From Proteiniphilum sp. (lineage in GTDB: Bacteria; Bacteroidota; Bacteroidia; Bacteroidales; Dysgonomonadaceae): DNA of 52,143 nt. A program made the translations under genes and the position numbers. The DNA lies in NCBI GenBank assembly GCA_018433945.1, contig JAHDQF010000028.1:1-52143 (forward strand), written 5' to 3'. Of this stretch, positions 18,465 to 24,506 are shown piece after piece. Numbering within the stretch: the first letter of the stretch is position 1; every line of letters starts with the position of its first letter. The notes under the pieces were generated by a model. The model was not told where the DNA came from. It made no database searches and saw nothing but the letters and a program-made list of their open reading frames with translations.

Positions 18465-20000
18465 TTATTTGGCAATCTTCTCCAGCCATTTGAGCATCGC
18501 CAGCATGGTGAACATGGAGATCAGACAGGCTGCCACAAAGACCATCCAGGTGGCAGTCATTGAGATGGAGGTATAAAAAATGGCTCCGATAAGGAGCAGG
18601 CTGTTGCCCACGGCGGTGGCCCCCAGCCAGGCTCCCTGCATGATTCCCTGATATTTTGGTGGGGCCACTTTCGATACGAAAGAGATGCCGAGAGGACTGA
18701 TGAAGAGCTCGGCCACGGTCAGGATGAAATAGGTGCCGATCAGCAGCCATGGTGTGACACGGGCAGCATCGGGCAAACCTCCCATTGCATCCACCTCACT
18801 TTTGAGTGGAAGTCCCGTGGAACCAATGGCCATCACGGCGTATGCCAGTGCGGCGATACCCATGCCGATAGCGATCTTGCGTGGTGTGGAGGGCTCCTTT
18901 CCCCTGGCGCGGAGCCATCCGAAGAAACCCACGATGATGGGGGTGAGGAATACCACAAAGAAGGGGTTGATCGACTGGAAGATCTCGGCACCTTCCAGGG
19001 TTGCAAATCCCAGGTTGAGCCTGATCTGGCTCAGGTTGGTATAATCTTTGGCGAAATAGGTGAGTGTGAGGCCGTTTTGGTGGAACGAGAACCAGAAGAA
19101 GATCACCACCGCAAAGACGGCGAAAAGGGCATAGAGGCGCTGTTTCACCTCTTTAATGTCCATCTCTTCTACCGCTGTTCCATCTGCCGCGGGTGCATTC
19201 CTGTTCGCCGGATCGGGGAACCGGTTCTTGTTAACCAGGTAGATCACCAGTGAGATCAGCATGGCTGCGATGGCTACTCCAAAAGCATAGTGGAAGCCAG
19301 TGGTGAACGCATTGAGATAATCACCGGCAAAAGTGGTCAGGTCGCTGCCACTGTATCCCATCTCACCAGCCAGTCGCTGGAGACGGTCACTGCCCTCTGG
19401 CGTGATGGTGTTGCCAAGGTACTGATGTGACAGCGCTGGCAGGTCGGCATTGTAGAAGAGGCCGTTCTTCCCTAACCACCAGTTTCTGACACCTACTGCC
19501 AGGAAAGGAGCGAAAATGGCACCTACATTGATGAACATGTAAAAGAGCTGGAATCCGGAGTCACGCATCTTGCTGTACTTCGGGTCATCGTACATCTGAC
19601 CCACCAATGCCTGGAGGTTCCCTTTGAAGAGTCCGTTCCCGAATGCGATCACCAGCAGTCCAAAGCAGCTGATTGCCAGGAAGAGGGCAAACTTGTCGGC
19701 CGGAACCGGAGTCGGGGTGGGGATGGCGATGATCACGTAACCCAGCGACATCAGCAGCAGCCCCGTCATGATGATCCCCTTGTAGTTGCGGGTCTTGTCG
19801 GCCAGCAACCCGCCCACCAGGGCCAGCAGGTAGATGGAAGCGTAAAAGATGGAGTAGATGACACCAGTGGTGGTCTCGTCCAGTCCGAACTTGGTCATTA
19901 AGAAGAGAGCCAGGATCGCCATCATGGTGTAAAAACCAAAGCGCTCCCCCATGTTCGCCAGCGATGCGGCGAGAAGTCCTTTAGGATGATTTTTAAACAT
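18465..20000 (-). CDS. proton-dependent oligopeptide transporter (POT/PTR2 family)
   Basis: 511-aa inner-membrane MFS-type symporter importing di- and tripeptides with protons. The N-terminus LAASLANMGERFGFYTMMAI carries the ExxERFxYY-like signature, partly altered. GGLLADKTRNYKGIIMTGLL and FGNGLFKGNLQALVGQ correspond to further PTR2 motifs. SFHQNGLTLTYFAKD lies in the C-terminal half and ISPLGISFVSKVAPPKYQGI is the late family motif. About 12-14 hydrophobic segments are present. It is a single-gene unit with a -7 box upstream and a palindromic terminator, and fits a peptide-fermenting lifestyle (inference). Confidence 0.93.
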   Translation of the reverse strand: MFKNHPKGLLAASLANMGERFGFYTMMAILALFLMTKFGLDETTTGVIYSIFYASIYLLALVGGLLADKTRNYKGIIMTGLLLMSLGYVIIAIPTPTPVPADKFALFLAISCFGLLVIAFGNGLFKGNLQALVGQMYDDPKYSKMRDSGFQLFYMFINVGAIFAPFLAVGVRNWWLGKNGLFYNADLPALSHQYLGNTITPEGSDRLQRLAGEMGYSGSDLTTFAGDYLNAFTTGFHYAFGVAIAAMLISLVIYLVNKNRFPDPANRNAPAADGTAVEEMDIKEVKQRLYALFAVFAVVIFFWFSFHQNGLTLTYFAKDYTNLSQIRLNLGFATLEGAEIFQSINPFFVVFLTPIIVGFFGWLRARGKEPSTPRKIAIGMGIAALAYAVMAIGSTGLPLKSEVDAMGGLPDAARVTPWLLIGTYFILTVAELFISPLGISFVSKVAPPKYQGIMQGAWLGATAVGNSLLLIGAIFYTSISMTATWMVFVAACLISMFTMLAMLKWLEKIAK

Positions 20001-20056: not shown

Positions 20057-20150
20057 AAGTTTTTTTCAATATTTTAGGCTTGCTCCTCCAAAAAGCGCTT
20101 TTTTTTTCAGGATGGAATCGTTTCGCCCGCTATTTTTTTCTCTTTTTTAT

Positions 20151-20179
20151 TTGAATAAATAAAATTTGTTGTACATTTG
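20151..20179 (+). promoter_or_regulatory. promoter of the aromatic amino acid operon
   Basis: TTG (20151-20153), an 18-nt spacer and TACATTTG (20172-20179) fit the Bacteroidota -33/-7 consensus. Transcription should start near 20186, giving a leader of about 195 nt before pheA. Confidence 0.75.
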
Positions 20180-20206
20180 CAGCACACATTACGAAAAGAA
20201 AACAAA

Positions 20207-20263
20207 GTGAACAGTTCTGTTTTTGCATATTCTTTCTGGTTTTACTTTTACTTTAGCAGGTAA
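20207..20263 (+). CDS. aromatic-rich leader peptide of the pheA operon
   Basis: An 18-codon frame starting with GTG about 20 nt after the predicted transcript start and ending in TAA: MNSSVFAYSFWFYFYFSR. It has five Phe, three Tyr and one Trp codon; eight of nine fall in a block of eleven codons ending two codons before the stop. Such density of the pathway's own end products is the hallmark of a ribosome-mediated attenuator. The stop codon is followed after one base by the 5' arm of an antiterminator. The start codon is GTG and no ATG is available. The mechanism is inferred from the sequence. Confidence 0.85.
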   Translation: MNSSVFAYSFWFYFYFSR

Positions 20264-20264
20264 G

Positions 20265-20352
20265 GGCAGGATTTTATATGCATGAAGAGAAATAATTAAA
20301 AGTCATATCAGATAAAATAAAATCCTGTCGATCACACGATGGGATTTTTTTT
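20265..20352 (+). promoter_or_regulatory. transcription attenuator: alternative antiterminator and terminator
   Basis: Terminator: AAAATCCTGTCG (20319-20330), loop ATCACA, CGATGGGATTTT (20337-20348), a 12-bp stem with two G-U pairs, running into eight Ts (20345-20352). Antiterminator: CAGGATTTTAT (20267-20277) is the exact complement of ATAAAATCCTG (20317-20327), extendable by a G-C and a G-U pair; forming it removes the terminator's 5' arm. A ribosome resting at the leader stop (20261-20263) would cover 20265-20277 and allow termination. A ribosome stalled on Phe/Tyr codons would leave it free, giving read-through into pheA at 20380. Confidence 0.85.
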
Positions 20353-20379
20353 ATGAATGTATGACAAACCAGATAAAAG

Positions 20380-21228
20380 ATGAAAAGAGTAGCCATTCAG
20401 GGAGGCCTGGGAGCCTATCATGAAATCGCGGCACGCGATTATTTCAAAGGAGAAAAGCTGGAGATTGTACCCTGCCAGACATTCCGCGATATTTTCAGGG
20501 AAGCTGACAAGGATCCGCAATTGATCGGCGTGATGGCCATCGAAAATACCATTGCCGGGAGCCTCCTTCCCAATCACGACCTGCTGAAACAGCATCATCT
20601 ACGTATTGCCGGCGAGCACAAACTGCGGATCACACATACCCTGGCAGCACTTCCCGGTACCTCCCTCAATGAGTTGAAAGAGGTGATGTCGCACCCCATG
20701 GCACTGATGCAGTGTGAAGAGTTCCTGGAGAGCCTGCCGGGTGTGAAGATTGTGGAGCATGAGGATACCGCACTGGCGGCAAAAGAGATCCGGGAGCTGG
20801 AGTTGAAGGGCACTGCTACCGTCTGCAGCCGGCTGGCGGCAGAGATGTATGGTCTTGAGATACTGGCCCACGGCATTGAGACCAACAAACGCAACTTCAC
20901 CCGTTTCTTTATCCTGGCGGGTGAGGAGATGCTGCGTGAAGTGCAGAAGAACAATCACATCAACAAGTCATCGCTGGTGTTTGTCCTTCCACATAGTGAA
21001 GGATCCTTGTCGAGAGTGTTGTCGGTCTTTTCATTTTATGGGATCAACCTGACCCGTATTCAGTCGCTTCCCATCATTGGCAGCGAATGGGAGTACCAGT
21101 TCTACATTGATCTCACCTTTACCGATTATCAGCGCTACAGACAGTCGATTGATGCCATCACCCCACTGATCAGTAACCTGAAGCTGCTTGGCGAGTACAG
21201 GGAAGAAAAAAATTCCGGAGAGAAGTAA
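20380..21228 (+). CDS. pheA: prephenate dehydratase
   Basis: 282-aa enzyme converting prephenate to phenylpyruvate in phenylalanine synthesis. The catalytic domain starts RVAIQGGLGAYHEIAARDYF; GVMAIENTIAGSLLPNHDLL and the TRFF motif (Thr174) of NFTRFFIL are the key signatures. A C-terminal ACT domain covers about residues 190-275. In it the ESRP Phe-binding motif is replaced by RIQSLPI, so classical feedback inhibition may be altered. First gene of the operon, 28 nt after the attenuator T-run; its TAA overlaps the next ATG by one base (TAATG). Confidence 0.95.
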   Translation: MKRVAIQGGLGAYHEIAARDYFKGEKLEIVPCQTFRDIFREADKDPQLIGVMAIENTIAGSLLPNHDLLKQHHLRIAGEHKLRITHTLAALPGTSLNELKEVMSHPMALMQCEEFLESLPGVKIVEHEDTALAAKEIRELELKGTATVCSRLAAEMYGLEILAHGIETNKRNFTRFFILAGEEMLREVQKNNHINKSSLVFVLPHSEGSLSRVLSVFSFYGINLTRIQSLPIIGSEWEYQFYIDLTFTDYQRYRQSIDAITPLISNLKLLGEYREEKNSGEK

Positions 21229-22436
21229 TGGAAAGAAACGAGCAAACAATGAAAATGATTGAACCTGCTGCACATATCAAGGCAATTCAAGAGTATTATT
21301 TTTCAGTGAAACTGGCTGAGGTAGCACGTATGAATGCCGATGGGCTGGATGTGGTGAGCCTTGCCGTGGGAGCACCTGACCGGATGCCGTCGCAAGAGAC
21401 CATTGATACGCTCTGTGAAAGCGCCCGCCGGCCAGACGTGCATGCCTATCAGCCCTATACCGGTATACCGGAGTTGCGGAAAGCATACGGTGACTGGTAC
21501 AAGCGATTCTATGGTGTGGAGCTGCAACCTGCAGAGGTGTTGCCACTGATCGGCTCCAAGGAGGGGATCCTGCACATTTCGATGACATTCCTCAACTTTG
21601 GCGATGCCGTACTGGTTCCCAACCCCGGTTATCCTACCTACCGTTCCGTGTCACAGCTGCTGCGCGCGGAGGTGAGGGAGTATGACCTGCTGGAGGCGAA
21701 AGGGTGGGAGCCCGATTTTGAAGCACTGGAGCAGATGGATCTGAGCCGGGTGAAGCTGATGTGGGTCAACTATCCCAATATGCCTACCGGCGCCAATGCC
21801 ACGCGAGAGCTCTTCGAAAAACTGGTGGCTTTCGGCAGGAAGCATAGCATCGTGATCTGTCACGACAATCCCTACAGCTTTATCCTGAACGACCGGCCAT
21901 TGAGCATTTTGTCAGTGCCCGGCGCCAGGGAGACCTGTATCGAACTGAACTCGCTGAGCAAGTCACACAACATGTCGGGATGGCGCATGGGCATGTTGGC
22001 CTCCAATGCGCAGTTTGTGCAGTGGGTGCTCAAGGCAAAAAGCAACATCGACAGCGGTCAGTTTAAGCCGATGCAGCTGGCAACTGTTGCTGCTCTCTCC
22101 AACAGCGACGAGTGGCATGCGGAGATGAACCGGATCTACCGGGAGCGGCGTGGCTGGGCCGGGATGATCATGCAACTGCTCGGCTGCAGCTACGATCCGA
22201 GCCAGGTGGGACTGTTCGTCTGGGGTAAGCTGCCGGATGAGGTGGTGAGCAGTGAGGCGCTGGTCGATGACCTGTTGCTGCATGCCCGCGTCTTCCTCAC
22301 CCCCGGTTTCATTTTCGGCAGCAATGGGGAGCGTTTTATCCGCATCTCACTGGGTGCCTCCGTGGAGAAGCTGCAGGAGGCCTACAGGCGGATAAAGGAG
22401 TACATTGGGCGGCAGGATTTGGAAATTGGGATGTGA
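21228..22436 (+). CDS. PLP-dependent aminotransferase, class I/II
   Basis: 402-aa fold-type I aminotransferase, placed to make Phe and Tyr from phenylpyruvate and hydroxyphenylpyruvate (inferred from the operon). GLDVVSLAVGAPDRMPS is the N-terminal motif, YTGIPELRKAYGDWYKRFYG follows, and VLPLIGSKEGILH binds the cofactor phosphate. VNYPNMPTGANAT holds the conserved Asn, and the PLP lysine is in ELNSLSKSHNMSGWRMG. FIRISLG near the end carries the substrate carboxylate Arg. It starts on TAATG overlapping pheA, indicating coupling; ATG 21249 is a weaker alternative. Confidence 0.92.
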   Translation: MERNEQTMKMIEPAAHIKAIQEYYFSVKLAEVARMNADGLDVVSLAVGAPDRMPSQETIDTLCESARRPDVHAYQPYTGIPELRKAYGDWYKRFYGVELQPAEVLPLIGSKEGILHISMTFLNFGDAVLVPNPGYPTYRSVSQLLRAEVREYDLLEAKGWEPDFEALEQMDLSRVKLMWVNYPNMPTGANATRELFEKLVAFGRKHSIVICHDNPYSFILNDRPLSILSVPGARETCIELNSLSKSHNMSGWRMGMLASNAQFVQWVLKAKSNIDSGQFKPMQLATVAALSNSDEWHAEMNRIYRERRGWAGMIMQLLGCSYDPSQVGLFVWGKLPDEVVSSEALVDDLLLHARVFLTPGFIFGSNGERFIRISLGASVEKLQEAYRRIKEYIGRQDLEIGM

Positions 22437-22495: not shown

Positions 22496-23572
22496 ATGGA
22501 ATTCGAATCAATTTTATTGCCGGGCATTGATGCAAAAAGACCGCTGGTGATTGCGGGACCCTGCAGTGCCGAGACGGAAGAACAGGTGATGACCACTGCC
22601 AGAGAGCTGGCGGCAGTGGGTGTGAAGATCTTCCGGGCCGGGGTGTGGAAACCACGCACCAAGCCCGGTGGCTTTGAAGGGGTTGGGAGCCCTGCACTCA
22701 AATGGTTGATGCAGGCGGAGAAGGAGACCGGCATGTACATGGCTACCGAGGTGGCTACCGAGAAACATGTTTACGAGGCGTTAAAGTATGGGGTGGATAT
22801 GCTCTGGATAGGAGCCCGTACCGTTGCCAATCCTTTTGCCGTACAGGAGATTGCCGACACCCTCAAGGGGGTGGATATCCCTATCCTGATCAAAAACCCG
22901 GTAAATCCCGACCTGGAGCTCTGGATCGGCGCACTGGAAAGACTCTACAACGCAGGCATCCGCAGGCTGGGGGTGATTCATCGTGGCTTCAGCACCACCG
23001 ACAAGACCATCTACCGTAACATCCCCCAATGGCACATCCCCATTGAGCTGAAGCGGCGCTTCCCCACCCTGCCGATGATCTGCGATCCGAGCCATATCGG
23101 CGGTGATCGCAACCTGATCTTTAAGATCAGCCAGCAGGCGATGGATCTGAACTACTCGGGACTGATCATCGAGTCTCACTGCTCTCCCGATGAGGCCTGG
23201 AGCGATAAGGCTCAACAGATCACTCCCGCTGCACTGAAGGAGATCCTCAACACCATCGTGATCCGTGATACGGTGCAGACCACCGAGGATCTCTCGGTGC
23301 TGCGTGACCAGATCGACGACCTGGACAATGAGCTGCTGCAACTGCTGGCCAAGCGCATGCGTGTATCCCGCGAGATAGGACAGTACAAGCTGGAGCATGA
23401 CATGCCAATTTTGCAGACACAGCGCTATGACCAGATCCTGACCGACCGTGCTTACCAGGGTGAGCGGATGGAGATGTCGGGCGATTTCGTAAAGAAAGTG
23501 CTGGAGGCAATCCACTCAGAGTCGGTACGCCAGCAGATGGTCATCATGGAGAGGGAGAAAAAGCAGGAATAA
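22496..23572 (+). CDS. bifunctional 3-deoxy-7-phosphoheptulonate synthase / chorismate mutase
   Basis: 358-aa fusion linking entry into the shikimate pathway with the branch-point mutase. Residues 1 to about 260 are a type I-beta DAHP synthase: VIAGPCSAETEEQ, FRAGVWKPRTKPGGFEGVG (PEP binding), LWIGARTVANPFAVQEIA and MICDPSHIGGDR. About 265-355 is an AroQ-type chorismate mutase (DLSVLRDQIDDLDNELLQLL, then AKRMRVSREIGQYK). The mutase is C-terminal, as in related Bacteroidota; in Porphyromonas-type fusions it can inhibit the synthase in response to prephenate. It lies 59 nt after the aminotransferase; the operon's next gene, tyrA, is 160 nt further on. Confidence 0.95.
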   Translation: MEFESILLPGIDAKRPLVIAGPCSAETEEQVMTTARELAAVGVKIFRAGVWKPRTKPGGFEGVGSPALKWLMQAEKETGMYMATEVATEKHVYEALKYGVDMLWIGARTVANPFAVQEIADTLKGVDIPILIKNPVNPDLELWIGALERLYNAGIRRLGVIHRGFSTTDKTIYRNIPQWHIPIELKRRFPTLPMICDPSHIGGDRNLIFKISQQAMDLNYSGLIIESHCSPDEAWSDKAQQITPAALKEILNTIVIRDTVQTTEDLSVLRDQIDDLDNELLQLLAKRMRVSREIGQYKLEHDMPILQTQRYDQILTDRAYQGERMEMSGDFVKKVLEAIHSESVRQQMVIMEREKKQE

Positions 23573-23664
23573 TTCGCTGCGCGATATTCGCACTTCGTGC
23601 GTAATTCATTCGCTTCGCTCATGTTATTCGCTCGTTACACTCGCGTTATTTGTGCTGCGCACGT
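23573..23664. repeat. hairpin-rich palindromic spacer in the aromatic operon
   Basis: A 92-nt stretch made of short ATTCGC-type units with small self-complementary hairpins, for example CGCAC-TTC-GTGCG (23589-23601) and GTGC-TGC-GCAC (23652-23662). No open frame of note and no T-run, so it is not a simple terminator. It resembles dispersed intergenic palindromic repeats; copy number elsewhere in the genome cannot be seen from here. Confidence 0.6.
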
Positions 23665-23730
23665 AACAACTGAACAACAATCGAACAACAACTGAATAAC
23701 AACTGAACAACAATCGAACAACAACTGAAT
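23665..23730 (+). repeat. six tandem 11-nt repeats before tyrA
   Basis: Six contiguous copies of AACAAYYGAAY: three different 11-mers (AACAACTGAAC, AACAATCGAAC, AACAACTGAAT) repeated twice, giving an exact 33-nt duplication. The array ends two bases before the tyrA ATG, so it is the whole ribosome-approach region of that gene. It is A/C-rich and should be single-stranded in mRNA. Confidence 0.9.
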
Positions 23731-23732
23731 AG

Positions 23733-24506
23733 ATGAAAATATTAATTCTTGGTGCCGGCAAGATGGGATCCTTCTTTGCCGATGTGCTCAGTTTCGACCA
23801 CGAGGTAGCGATGCTCGACATCGACCCGAAGAAGCTGCGATTCATCTACCATACAGAGCGGATGACCAATCCGCAGGAGGTGGAGGCATTCGCACCGGAG
23901 CTGGTGATCAATGCCGCTACACTGAAATATACCATTCCCGCCTTTGAGTCGGTGCTGCCCTATCTGCCACAGACCTGTATCCTGAGCGACATTGCTTCGG
24001 TAAAAACTGGTCTGGAAGAGTTTTACAGGGAACGTACCCGTCCTTTTGTTTCCACTCACCCCATGTTCGGGCCCACTTTTGCCAGCCTGAGCGACCTGAG
24101 TAGCCAGAGTGCCATCATCATTGCCGAGTCGTCGCACCTGGGTAAGGTCTTCTTCCGTGATCTATACCGTCATCTGAAGTTGAATGTATTCGAGTATTCA
24201 TTCCGGGAGCATGACGAAACCATCGCCTATTCACTCTCCATCCCCTTTGCCTCCACCCTGGTATTTGCCTCGGTGATGAAACATCAGGATGCACCGGGGA
24301 CCACCTTCAAGAAACATATGAATATTGCACAGGGATTGCTTTCAGAAGATGATTACCTGCTCACCGAGATCCTCTTCAATCCCTACACACCGGGTCAACT
24401 GATCCATATCCGGGAGAAGCTCAAGGAGCTGCTCACCATCATTGAACAGAAAGACAGTGCCGGTATGAAAGCCTTTCTGAAACAGGTGCGGGAGAATATC
24501 AGCTGA
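23733..24506 (+). CDS. tyrA: prephenate dehydrogenase
   Basis: 257-aa NAD(P)-dependent enzyme making 4-hydroxyphenylpyruvate for tyrosine. The Rossmann motif ILGAGKMGSFFADVL lies at residues 5-19. CILSDIASVKTGLEEF and FVSTHPMFGPTFASLSDLS, with the catalytic-region His, follow; the C-terminal half is the helical dimerisation domain. There is no ACT domain, so any feedback would act elsewhere. Last gene of the aromatic operon; its stop lies 15 nt from the convergent cyclophilin gene and no terminator is evident. Immediately upstream are six 11-nt repeats that may influence translation. Confidence 0.92.
   Translation: MKILILGAGKMGSFFADVLSFDHEVAMLDIDPKKLRFIYHTERMTNPQEVEAFAPELVINAATLKYTIPAFESVLPYLPQTCILSDIASVKTGLEEFYRERTRPFVSTHPMFGPTFASLSDLSSQSAIIIAESSHLGKVFFRDLYRHLKLNVFEYSFREHDETIAYSLSIPFASTLVFASVMKHQDAPGTTFKKHMNIAQGLLSEDDYLLTEILFNPYTPGQLIHIREKLKELLTIIEQKDSAGMKAFLKQVRENIS

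Follow-up and report, generated by a model that had tools for sequence, protein, structure and literature searches.

A probable Phe/Tyr leader-peptide attenuator ahead of pheA in Proteiniphilum and its recurrence in the class Bacteroidia

The pheA operon and its leader region

The window, by which we mean the whole stretch of 52,143 nt that was analysed, derives from a Proteiniphilum draft genome of 2.3 Mb in 92 contigs. The nearest relative of its PheA protein, by search and by tree, belongs to a Proteiniphilum of the family Dysgonomonadaceae. The following features were located around pheA:

18465-20000, minus strand: divergent peptide transporter, the upstream neighbour of the promoter and leader
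20151-20153 and 20172-20179, plus strand: Bacteroidota-type promoter from a motif search, with TTG as −33 region and TACATTTG as −7 element
20207-20263, plus strand: leader ORF MNSSVFAYSFWFYFYFSR, read from the sequence and conserved, with GTG at 20207, 18 codons to 20260 and TAA at 20261-20263
20224-20247, plus strand: segment 1, predicted protector hairpin, 5′ strand in three stretches (20224-20230, 20234-20238, 20240-20247) inside the leader codons; from fold and pair counts
20258-20282, plus strand: predicted protector hairpin, 3′ strand in three stretches (20258-20265, 20267-20271, 20276-20282), which shares bases with the antiterminator arm; from fold and pair counts
20265-20277, plus strand: segment 2, predicted antiterminator 5′ arm GGCAGGATTTTAT; from fold and pair counts
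20317-20329, plus strand: segment 3, predicted antiterminator 3′ arm ATAAAATCCTGTC, common with the terminator 5′ arm; from fold and pair counts
20319-20352, plus strand: predicted intrinsic terminator (3:4), a 12-bp stem of 20319-20330 with 20337-20348 and eight T at 20345-20352; from prediction and pair counts
20380-21228, plus strand: pheA, prephenate dehydratase (PF00800, 187.7 bits, cut-off 25.2; NF008865, 196.8 bits, short of its 219-bit cut-off)
21228-22436, plus strand: class I/II aminotransferase with a putative role in the operon (PF00155; no NCBIfam model at cut-off among the 25 listed)
22496-23572, plus strand: DAHP synthase fused to chorismate mutase (PF00793 and PF01817, both above cut-off)
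23733-24506, plus strand: tyrA-like prephenate dehydrogenase (PF02153, 30.6 bits, cut-off 26.5; NCBIfam prephenate dehydrogenases below cut-off)

The domain matches of the four genes between 20380 and 24506 describe an operon for Phe and Tyr synthesis, in agreement with the original prediction. Downstream of pheA in relatives, where the loci had enough sequence, the aminotransferase was found in 70/75 and the DAHP synthase in 72/72. The 160-nt gap between the DAHP synthase/chorismate mutase gene and tyrA (23573-23732) contains many short repeats, with GAACAACAAY-like units near its end.

When the leader was re-read, it contained the predicted five Phe, three Tyr and one Trp codons. We searched the window for frames of 10-40 codons with at least seven Phe/Tyr residues and at least 38% Phe/Tyr, excluding stop-to-stop stretches of more than 60 codons. 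The leader was the only such frame in the 52 kb, and none occurred in 60 dinucleotide shuffles. Its start codon is preceded by an A-rich stretch and, in this leader, the only one examined for it, lacks Shine-Dalgarno pairing. Bacteroidota largely initiate translation without such pairing. A generic sigma-70 scan gave a single site, at 20296-20323, which is below the chance expectation.

Mutually exclusive helices

The eleven perfect base pairs proposed earlier as an antiterminator lie within a helix of 13 bp (20265-20277 with 20317-20329) when one G-U pair is allowed, and the terminator stem with its eight T was found exactly as described. The arm 20319-20329 is common to both, which makes the two helices mutually exclusive. 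The leader without the terminator (20208-20316) folds into one long hairpin of −25.8 kcal/mol, in which 20224-20230 pairs with 20276-20282, 20234-20238 with 20267-20271 and 20240-20247 with 20258-20265. The middle stack contains CAGGA, the core of the antiterminator arm. Fold z-scores in the window were −4.4 for the antiterminator, −3.0 for the terminator and −2.9 for the leader/protector hairpin.

The original prediction had held that no separate protector hairpin is needed and had noted a weak 7-bp pairing of 20224-20230 with 20276-20282. This pairing is present, but it forms just the outer stack of a protector hairpin of 20 bp. Since this predicted hairpin exists and is conserved (see below), the scheme is complete: in the modelled structures the full textbook set of a 1:2 protector, a 2:3 antiterminator and a 3:4 terminator is present, and the earlier reading is corrected on this point.

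A terminator-like site taken alone is poor evidence. Five such sites were found between 19000 and 21500 where 2.5 were expected, and the one assigned to the attenuator has the most pairs (12). These numbers, together with an AT-rich intergenic sequence that favours T runs and aromatic codons, could be read as a constitutive terminator or a chance arrangement without regulation. We give this explanation next to no credence, as it is contradicted by the absence of comparable frames from the 60 shuffles and by the conservation and covariation described in the next section.

Conservation and covariation among related pheA loci

Searching a species-level genome collection with PheA returned 205 relatives, of which the best 80 (57-96% identity over their best segments) were taken as loci. 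The leader was found at 77 of these best 80; L027 ends at a contig edge, and L062 and L071 have no leader. Alignment A1 therefore comprises 78 rows, the window plus 77 loci, and was used for the pair counts of all three helices. A parsed set of 74 rows (the window plus 73 loci) was used for folds, core pairing and spacing. Besides the three loci just named, the parser failed on L022 and L077, which lack a 5-mer antiterminator, and on L050 and L063, where the core pattern was missed; these four were restored for A1. The parser demanded pairing of the central 5-mer in both helices, and the fold, core-pairing and spacing counts (n=74) are conditioned on that.

The TTG-N17-23-TAnnTTTG promoter pattern occurred in 69 of the 74 parsed sequences, against 0.7 expected from base shuffles, and its distance to the leader core was mostly constant. 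This supports the −33/−7 promoter assigned earlier to TTG and TACATTTG.

Inside the frame (columns 13-54 of A1) all 28 gaps were of 3 nt, whereas gap lengths in columns 55-150 varied from 1 to 30. This points indirectly to translation of the leader. The last five core codons are mostly TTT TAC TTT TAC TTT, so that the codons themselves, beyond the amino acids, appear to be conserved. The protector stack of TTTTACTT with AGGTAAGG would account for part of this conservation; peptide and RNA constraints thus seem entangled in these nucleotides. Trp as a required signal was rejected: the lone Trp codon of the window leader is replaced by Gly, Phe, Tyr, Cys or Arg in relatives.

For the terminator, 98.8% of the cells in A1 were paired, with 103 double-changed cells and a covariation of 0.453 against 0.260 after shuffling, while slid versions of the helix reached at most 56.9%. 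The antiterminator was paired in 87.7% of the cells (64 double-changed; covariation 0.252, shuffled 0.173; no more than 50.1% when slid) and the protector in 89.8% (39 double-changed; covariation 0.237, shuffled 0.206; no more than 62.4% when slid). These shuffle tests are inflated by the relatedness of the rows. In the antiterminator and protector, the counts of double-changed pairs and of pair types were not above those of column shuffles. One protector column pair, 38-72, is broken in 50/78 rows. The most telling one, 25-88, is G-C in 42, A-U in 21, G-U in 11 and unpaired in 4; a leader codon begins at column 25, and the choice between Ala (GCA) and Thr (ACA) tracks the opposite base 88.

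We also counted minimum Watson-Crick state changes on a PheA tree, built by a quick method from 77 rows (L066, a short reading, was omitted). Terminator pairs 160-188, 166-182, 167-181 and 168-180 required 6, 3, 4 and 6 changes, antiterminator pairs 70-167, 71-166, 73-164 and 82-157 required 3, 3, 5 and 3, and protector pairs 25-88, 30-83 and 24-94 required 4, 5 and 4. In sign tests of these eleven pairs only terminator pair 160-188 reached a median p of 0.03, most being too small for significance, and no clear direction was seen on the tree for terminator pair 167-181 and protector pair 30-83. Columns 71, 166 and 182 shift jointly (G/C/G in 35, G/U/A in 21, A/U/A in 14 and others in 8 of the 78 rows); the three letters move together because segment 3 belongs to both helices. 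The alignment indicates that compensatory changes are present in all three helices, with weaker support for the predicted protector than for the antiterminator and terminator. The expectation from the single sequence, namely that the aromatic codons and the two helices then proposed would be conserved with compensatory changes, was borne out by the 78 rows.

Predicted folds and ribosome spacing

With the arm free and segment 4 absent, the minimum-energy fold contained the antiterminator in 73/74 sequences, and with the arm masked the terminator was predicted in 74/74. When the arm was free and the whole 3′ part was present, the terminator gave the minimum-energy fold in 54 of the 74 sequences and the antiterminator in the remaining 20. 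As the terminator wins in most sequences when both are possible, antitermination must depend on pairing of the arm before segment 4 is synthesised. Known attenuators rely on the same order of events. In the predicted folds of all 74 sequences, the window included, at least three of the five antiterminator core bases were paired with the leader, with the exact stacks varying.

The distance from the last aromatic codon to the antiterminator arm is 9, 10 or 11 nt in 17, 38 and 7 of the 74 sequences (62/74 in total), with a range of 4-16, in which the value 4 (L043) is an artefact of a core end set by a special pattern. A ribosome protects about 12-13 nt counted from the first base of the A-site codon. 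With the last aromatic codon in the A site, its front edge is expected to end where the arm begins. The stop codon lies 6 nt past the core in 58/74; once it occupies the A site, some eight or nine arm bases would be hidden under the ribosome. In 12/74, among them Parabacteroides, Bacteroides and Alistipes, the frame continues through the arm. Its stop lies 27-36 nt beyond the core in these cases, and a ribosome terminating there would be placed differently. Apart from these 12 stops further on, and taking this general footprint, the spacing is such that a ribosome at the control codons would free the arm and one at the stop codon would cover it.

A terminator switch run by a protein or ligand on the leader RNA, with the frame being incidental, would need only the antiterminator and terminator and would allow any ligand. 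The exclusively 3-nt gaps in the frame and the near-constant distance of the aromatic codons from the arm speak against such a switch, as does the absence of any Rfam family at gathering score in the window. We consider it extremely unlikely.

Proposed mechanism

Sequence evidence on the parts, on how they exclude one another, and on their conservation, covariation and spacing makes it very probable that the element is a ribosome-mediated transcription attenuator that senses the supply of Phe and Tyr, with translation of the leader and stalling of the ribosome presumably setting read-through. When Phe-tRNA and Tyr-tRNA are plentiful, the first ribosome would reach the TAA and cover most of the antiterminator arm; the terminator would then form and transcription would stop near 20352. 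When Phe or Tyr is short, the ribosome would wait on the TTT/TAC run with its front edge just before 20265, opening the protector. The freed segment 2 could pair with segment 3 ahead of the synthesis of segment 4; this would pre-empt the terminator and let the operon be read. If the leader is not translated, the protector (1:2) would hold the arm and the terminator would form (super-attenuation).

Relation to known attenuators

The proteobacterial pheA attenuator (pheL) has a Phe-rich leader and alternative hairpins ahead of pheA. The window element follows the same plan; it differs in having both Phe and Tyr codons, an operon for both amino acids, an A-rich stretch before the start codon and a Bacteroidota promoter. 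A T-box is a terminator switch that senses tRNA charging and needs no leader frame; like the proposed attenuator it chooses the terminator by tRNA charging, but unlike it, does so without a leader frame. We rejected a riboswitch or T-box known to Rfam, as none matched at gathering score anywhere in the window. At a relaxed threshold 19 families were reported for 20150-20400, with rnk_leader on top (28.7 bits, gathering score 50) and RF01859 Phe_leader next. The latter aligned in full length to 20213-20352 with 25.0 bits (E 0.029), far below its gathering score of 55 and behind rnk_leader. Membership in RF01859 was therefore rejected; the element is alike in plan and is not a member.

The enterobacterial trp, his, leu, ilv and pheA attenuators, as described in the accessible part of PMC1183508, also combine a leader of cognate codons with mutually exclusive hairpins, and when their leader is untranslated they terminate via I:II plus III:IV. 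They belong to another phylum and were compared for homology by the Rfam model alone. Within the phylum, the accessible text of PMC9723704 describes pheA and hisG of Flavobacterium psychrophilum and other genera of the Flavobacteriaceae as preceded by structured 5′ elements, and it reports 'strong clues' of leader-peptide attenuation upstream of flavobacterial amino-acid operons. These elements share phylum and gene with ours, are transcribed and structured, and have no Rfam match; the likeness is one of description, since this text gives no leader sequence, helices or covariation for pheA. In the available text of PMC7366714, long 5′ UTRs of Bacteroides thetaiotaomicron are noted to contain short frames 'reminiscent of leader peptides'.

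According to PMC2965389, leader-peptide systems were known in 2010 from Proteobacteria and Actinobacteria only, before that study added Firmicutes; no word beginning with 'Bacteroid' occurs in its main text as available. In the accessible text of PMC8305728, on the his genes of the superphylum, attenuation is mentioned once, for enterobacteria, and no leader is described. No paper came up in a literature search for ribosome-mediated attenuation in Bacteroidota. Nor did the literature searches, which covered few subscription journals, bring up the anatomy of four segments with covariation or its spread through the class. The mechanism is thus classical, and its presence in the phylum has already been glimpsed; leader-peptide control is barely documented in the class Bacteroidia. 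The statement of the original prediction that no characterised case is known from Bacteroidota agrees with these searches as regards the detailed anatomy, but the phylum is not blank, given the 'strong clues' in the available text of PMC9723704.

Occurrence across the phylum

Leaders of similar architecture precede pheA in many genomes of the same class. For a broader view, 60 genomes were picked at fixed steps from 395 drawn evenly from the phylum and searched with the PheA protein, which matched in 51 (23/30 and 28/30). Among genomes of the same class, taken as Bacteroidia, 12/14 carried an aromatic-rich leader ahead of pheA, and a script found the terminator in 11 of these 12; one of them, L188, was judged via L099, the same place in the same genome. 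The script found no terminator in L192. This locus harbours two successive aromatic-rich frames before pheA at about 1080-1500, MLQTRFFFGYYYFYAAA and one ending in QQVFFTYGYYFFYLKKPARCCQC, which are possibly tandem attenuators.

Outside the class, leader and terminator were found at 2/37 sampled pheA genes (L164 and L170). Their PheA scores resemble those of the same class (E 1.9e-71 and 3.6e-65), and gene and leader may have been transferred together. Their antiterminators were not above chance, being matched by 54 (L164) and 74 (L170) of 200 shuffles; the same holds for L165, with 36 of 200. A loose screen also listed frames containing Phe/Tyr without a terminator in L175, L195, L203, L206 and L212, which were not counted. 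On these sequences, the attenuator looks like one class-wide device that rarely travels.

A separate parse of more distant leaders was entered with 34 loci and succeeded for 28. L108, L171, L189, L190 and L213 failed on the leader pattern and L192 on the terminator pattern; an aromatic leader is nevertheless visible in L171, L190 and L192. In L189 pheA lies directly behind another gene, and L213 reads as a chorismate mutase/dehydratase fusion. Many of the 28 came from a covariance-model search and hence resemble A1 by selection. Their antiterminator starts a median 10 nt past the core; in 23 leaders no more than 4 of 200 base shuffles equalled it, and in 27 at least 3 nt of its arm are paired to the leader. 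The arm sequences differ, for example with GCAGGAT and ATCCTGC pairing in Bacteroidales loci and GCCGGGACT and AGTCCCGGC elsewhere.

The covariance-model search of the phylum gave hits in 111/395 genomes at E 0.01, a tally that is unusable as a prevalence. Besides the window's own, 29 loci from this search were inspected: 24 lie ahead of pheA (recognised from the start of the next frame), one ahead of phenylalanine 4-monooxygenase and four elsewhere (L097, L105, L110 and L111).

Leaders for other amino acids

In the same genome as the window, we found a His leader, MKAYRFHHHFHTCNQAS (from its ATG), followed by a terminator ahead of hisG. It lies on the minus strand of another contig (L123; G000:C13), and its stop is 263 nt upstream of the HisG match; the pheA model weakly matches this region (E 0.24). 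His leaders were present in 13/16 hisG loci, own genome included, and a fourteenth, L122, appeared in one of two screens. A branched-chain leader, VRNIDILVISILLLLEGFRG, again followed by a terminator, precedes leuA in the same genome (L223; G000:C75), 116-176 nt upstream of the leuA match, and ILVISILLL-like leaders occur in relatives of the same genus. With the own genome included, leu leaders with a terminator were seen at 14 of 18 leuA loci examined (20 fetched).

WWW leaders with a terminator were found at 3/15 trpE loci (L129, L130 and L134, from other families of the order); in the window's genus, the 520 nt examined showed no such leader. Val-run leaders occurred at 5/20 ilvD loci, two of them with a terminator. 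The His, Leu, Trp and Val leaders were identified here by their frame and, where one was found, the terminator. In L108, a Tyr leader, MKNLNNTYYYYPILTRRIGQ, and a terminator (1460-1640) lie ahead of phenylalanine 4-monooxygenase (NF008877, 251 bits, cut-off 247; TIGR01267, 240.1 bits, below its cut-off of 264.75). Judged by its sequence, this may be an attenuator that responds to Tyr, placed ahead of the enzyme converting Phe into Tyr.

These leaders also bear on how the pheA leader is read. The C-terminal part of its peptide is the most conserved, as would be expected if nascent FYFYFSR sensed free Phe or Tyr and arrested the ribosome, as TnaC does with Trp. Against such an arrest peptide, F and Y do not keep a fixed order in distant leaders (RFYFSNSFYFFF and YFWFYFGYYFFFY, for example), the His and Leu leaders of the own genome bear their own cognate codons, which fits codon reading, and the protector pairing partly explains the nucleotide conservation. 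An arrest peptide is thus very unlikely, and attenuation by codon reading remains our preferred explanation.

Coupling of transcription and translation

Taking all leaders together, we lean towards the view that the class Bacteroidia runs the synthesis of Phe/Tyr, His, Leu, partly Ile/Val and Trp, and even Tyr formation by phenylalanine hydroxylase, by classical attenuation from leaders without a Shine-Dalgarno sequence, the latter property having been seen in the window leader alone. If this is true, the device would have arisen apart from the proteobacterial attenuators, and in this group the first ribosome would be coupled to RNA polymerase, as leader-peptide attenuation needs a ribosome close behind the polymerase. 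The value of the element lies in its breadth and in what it would imply for transcription-translation coupling in Bacteroidota. The recurrence of the leader through the class makes this coupling directly testable with ready-made sensors. In the available text of PMC13323073 (2026), on runaway transcription, the phyla taken as uncoupled do not include Bacteroidota, which agrees with coupling. Three Bacteroides loci (L078-L080) bear the leader, and aromatic amino-acid synthesis in this genus is accordingly predicted to be under a control that is not annotated.
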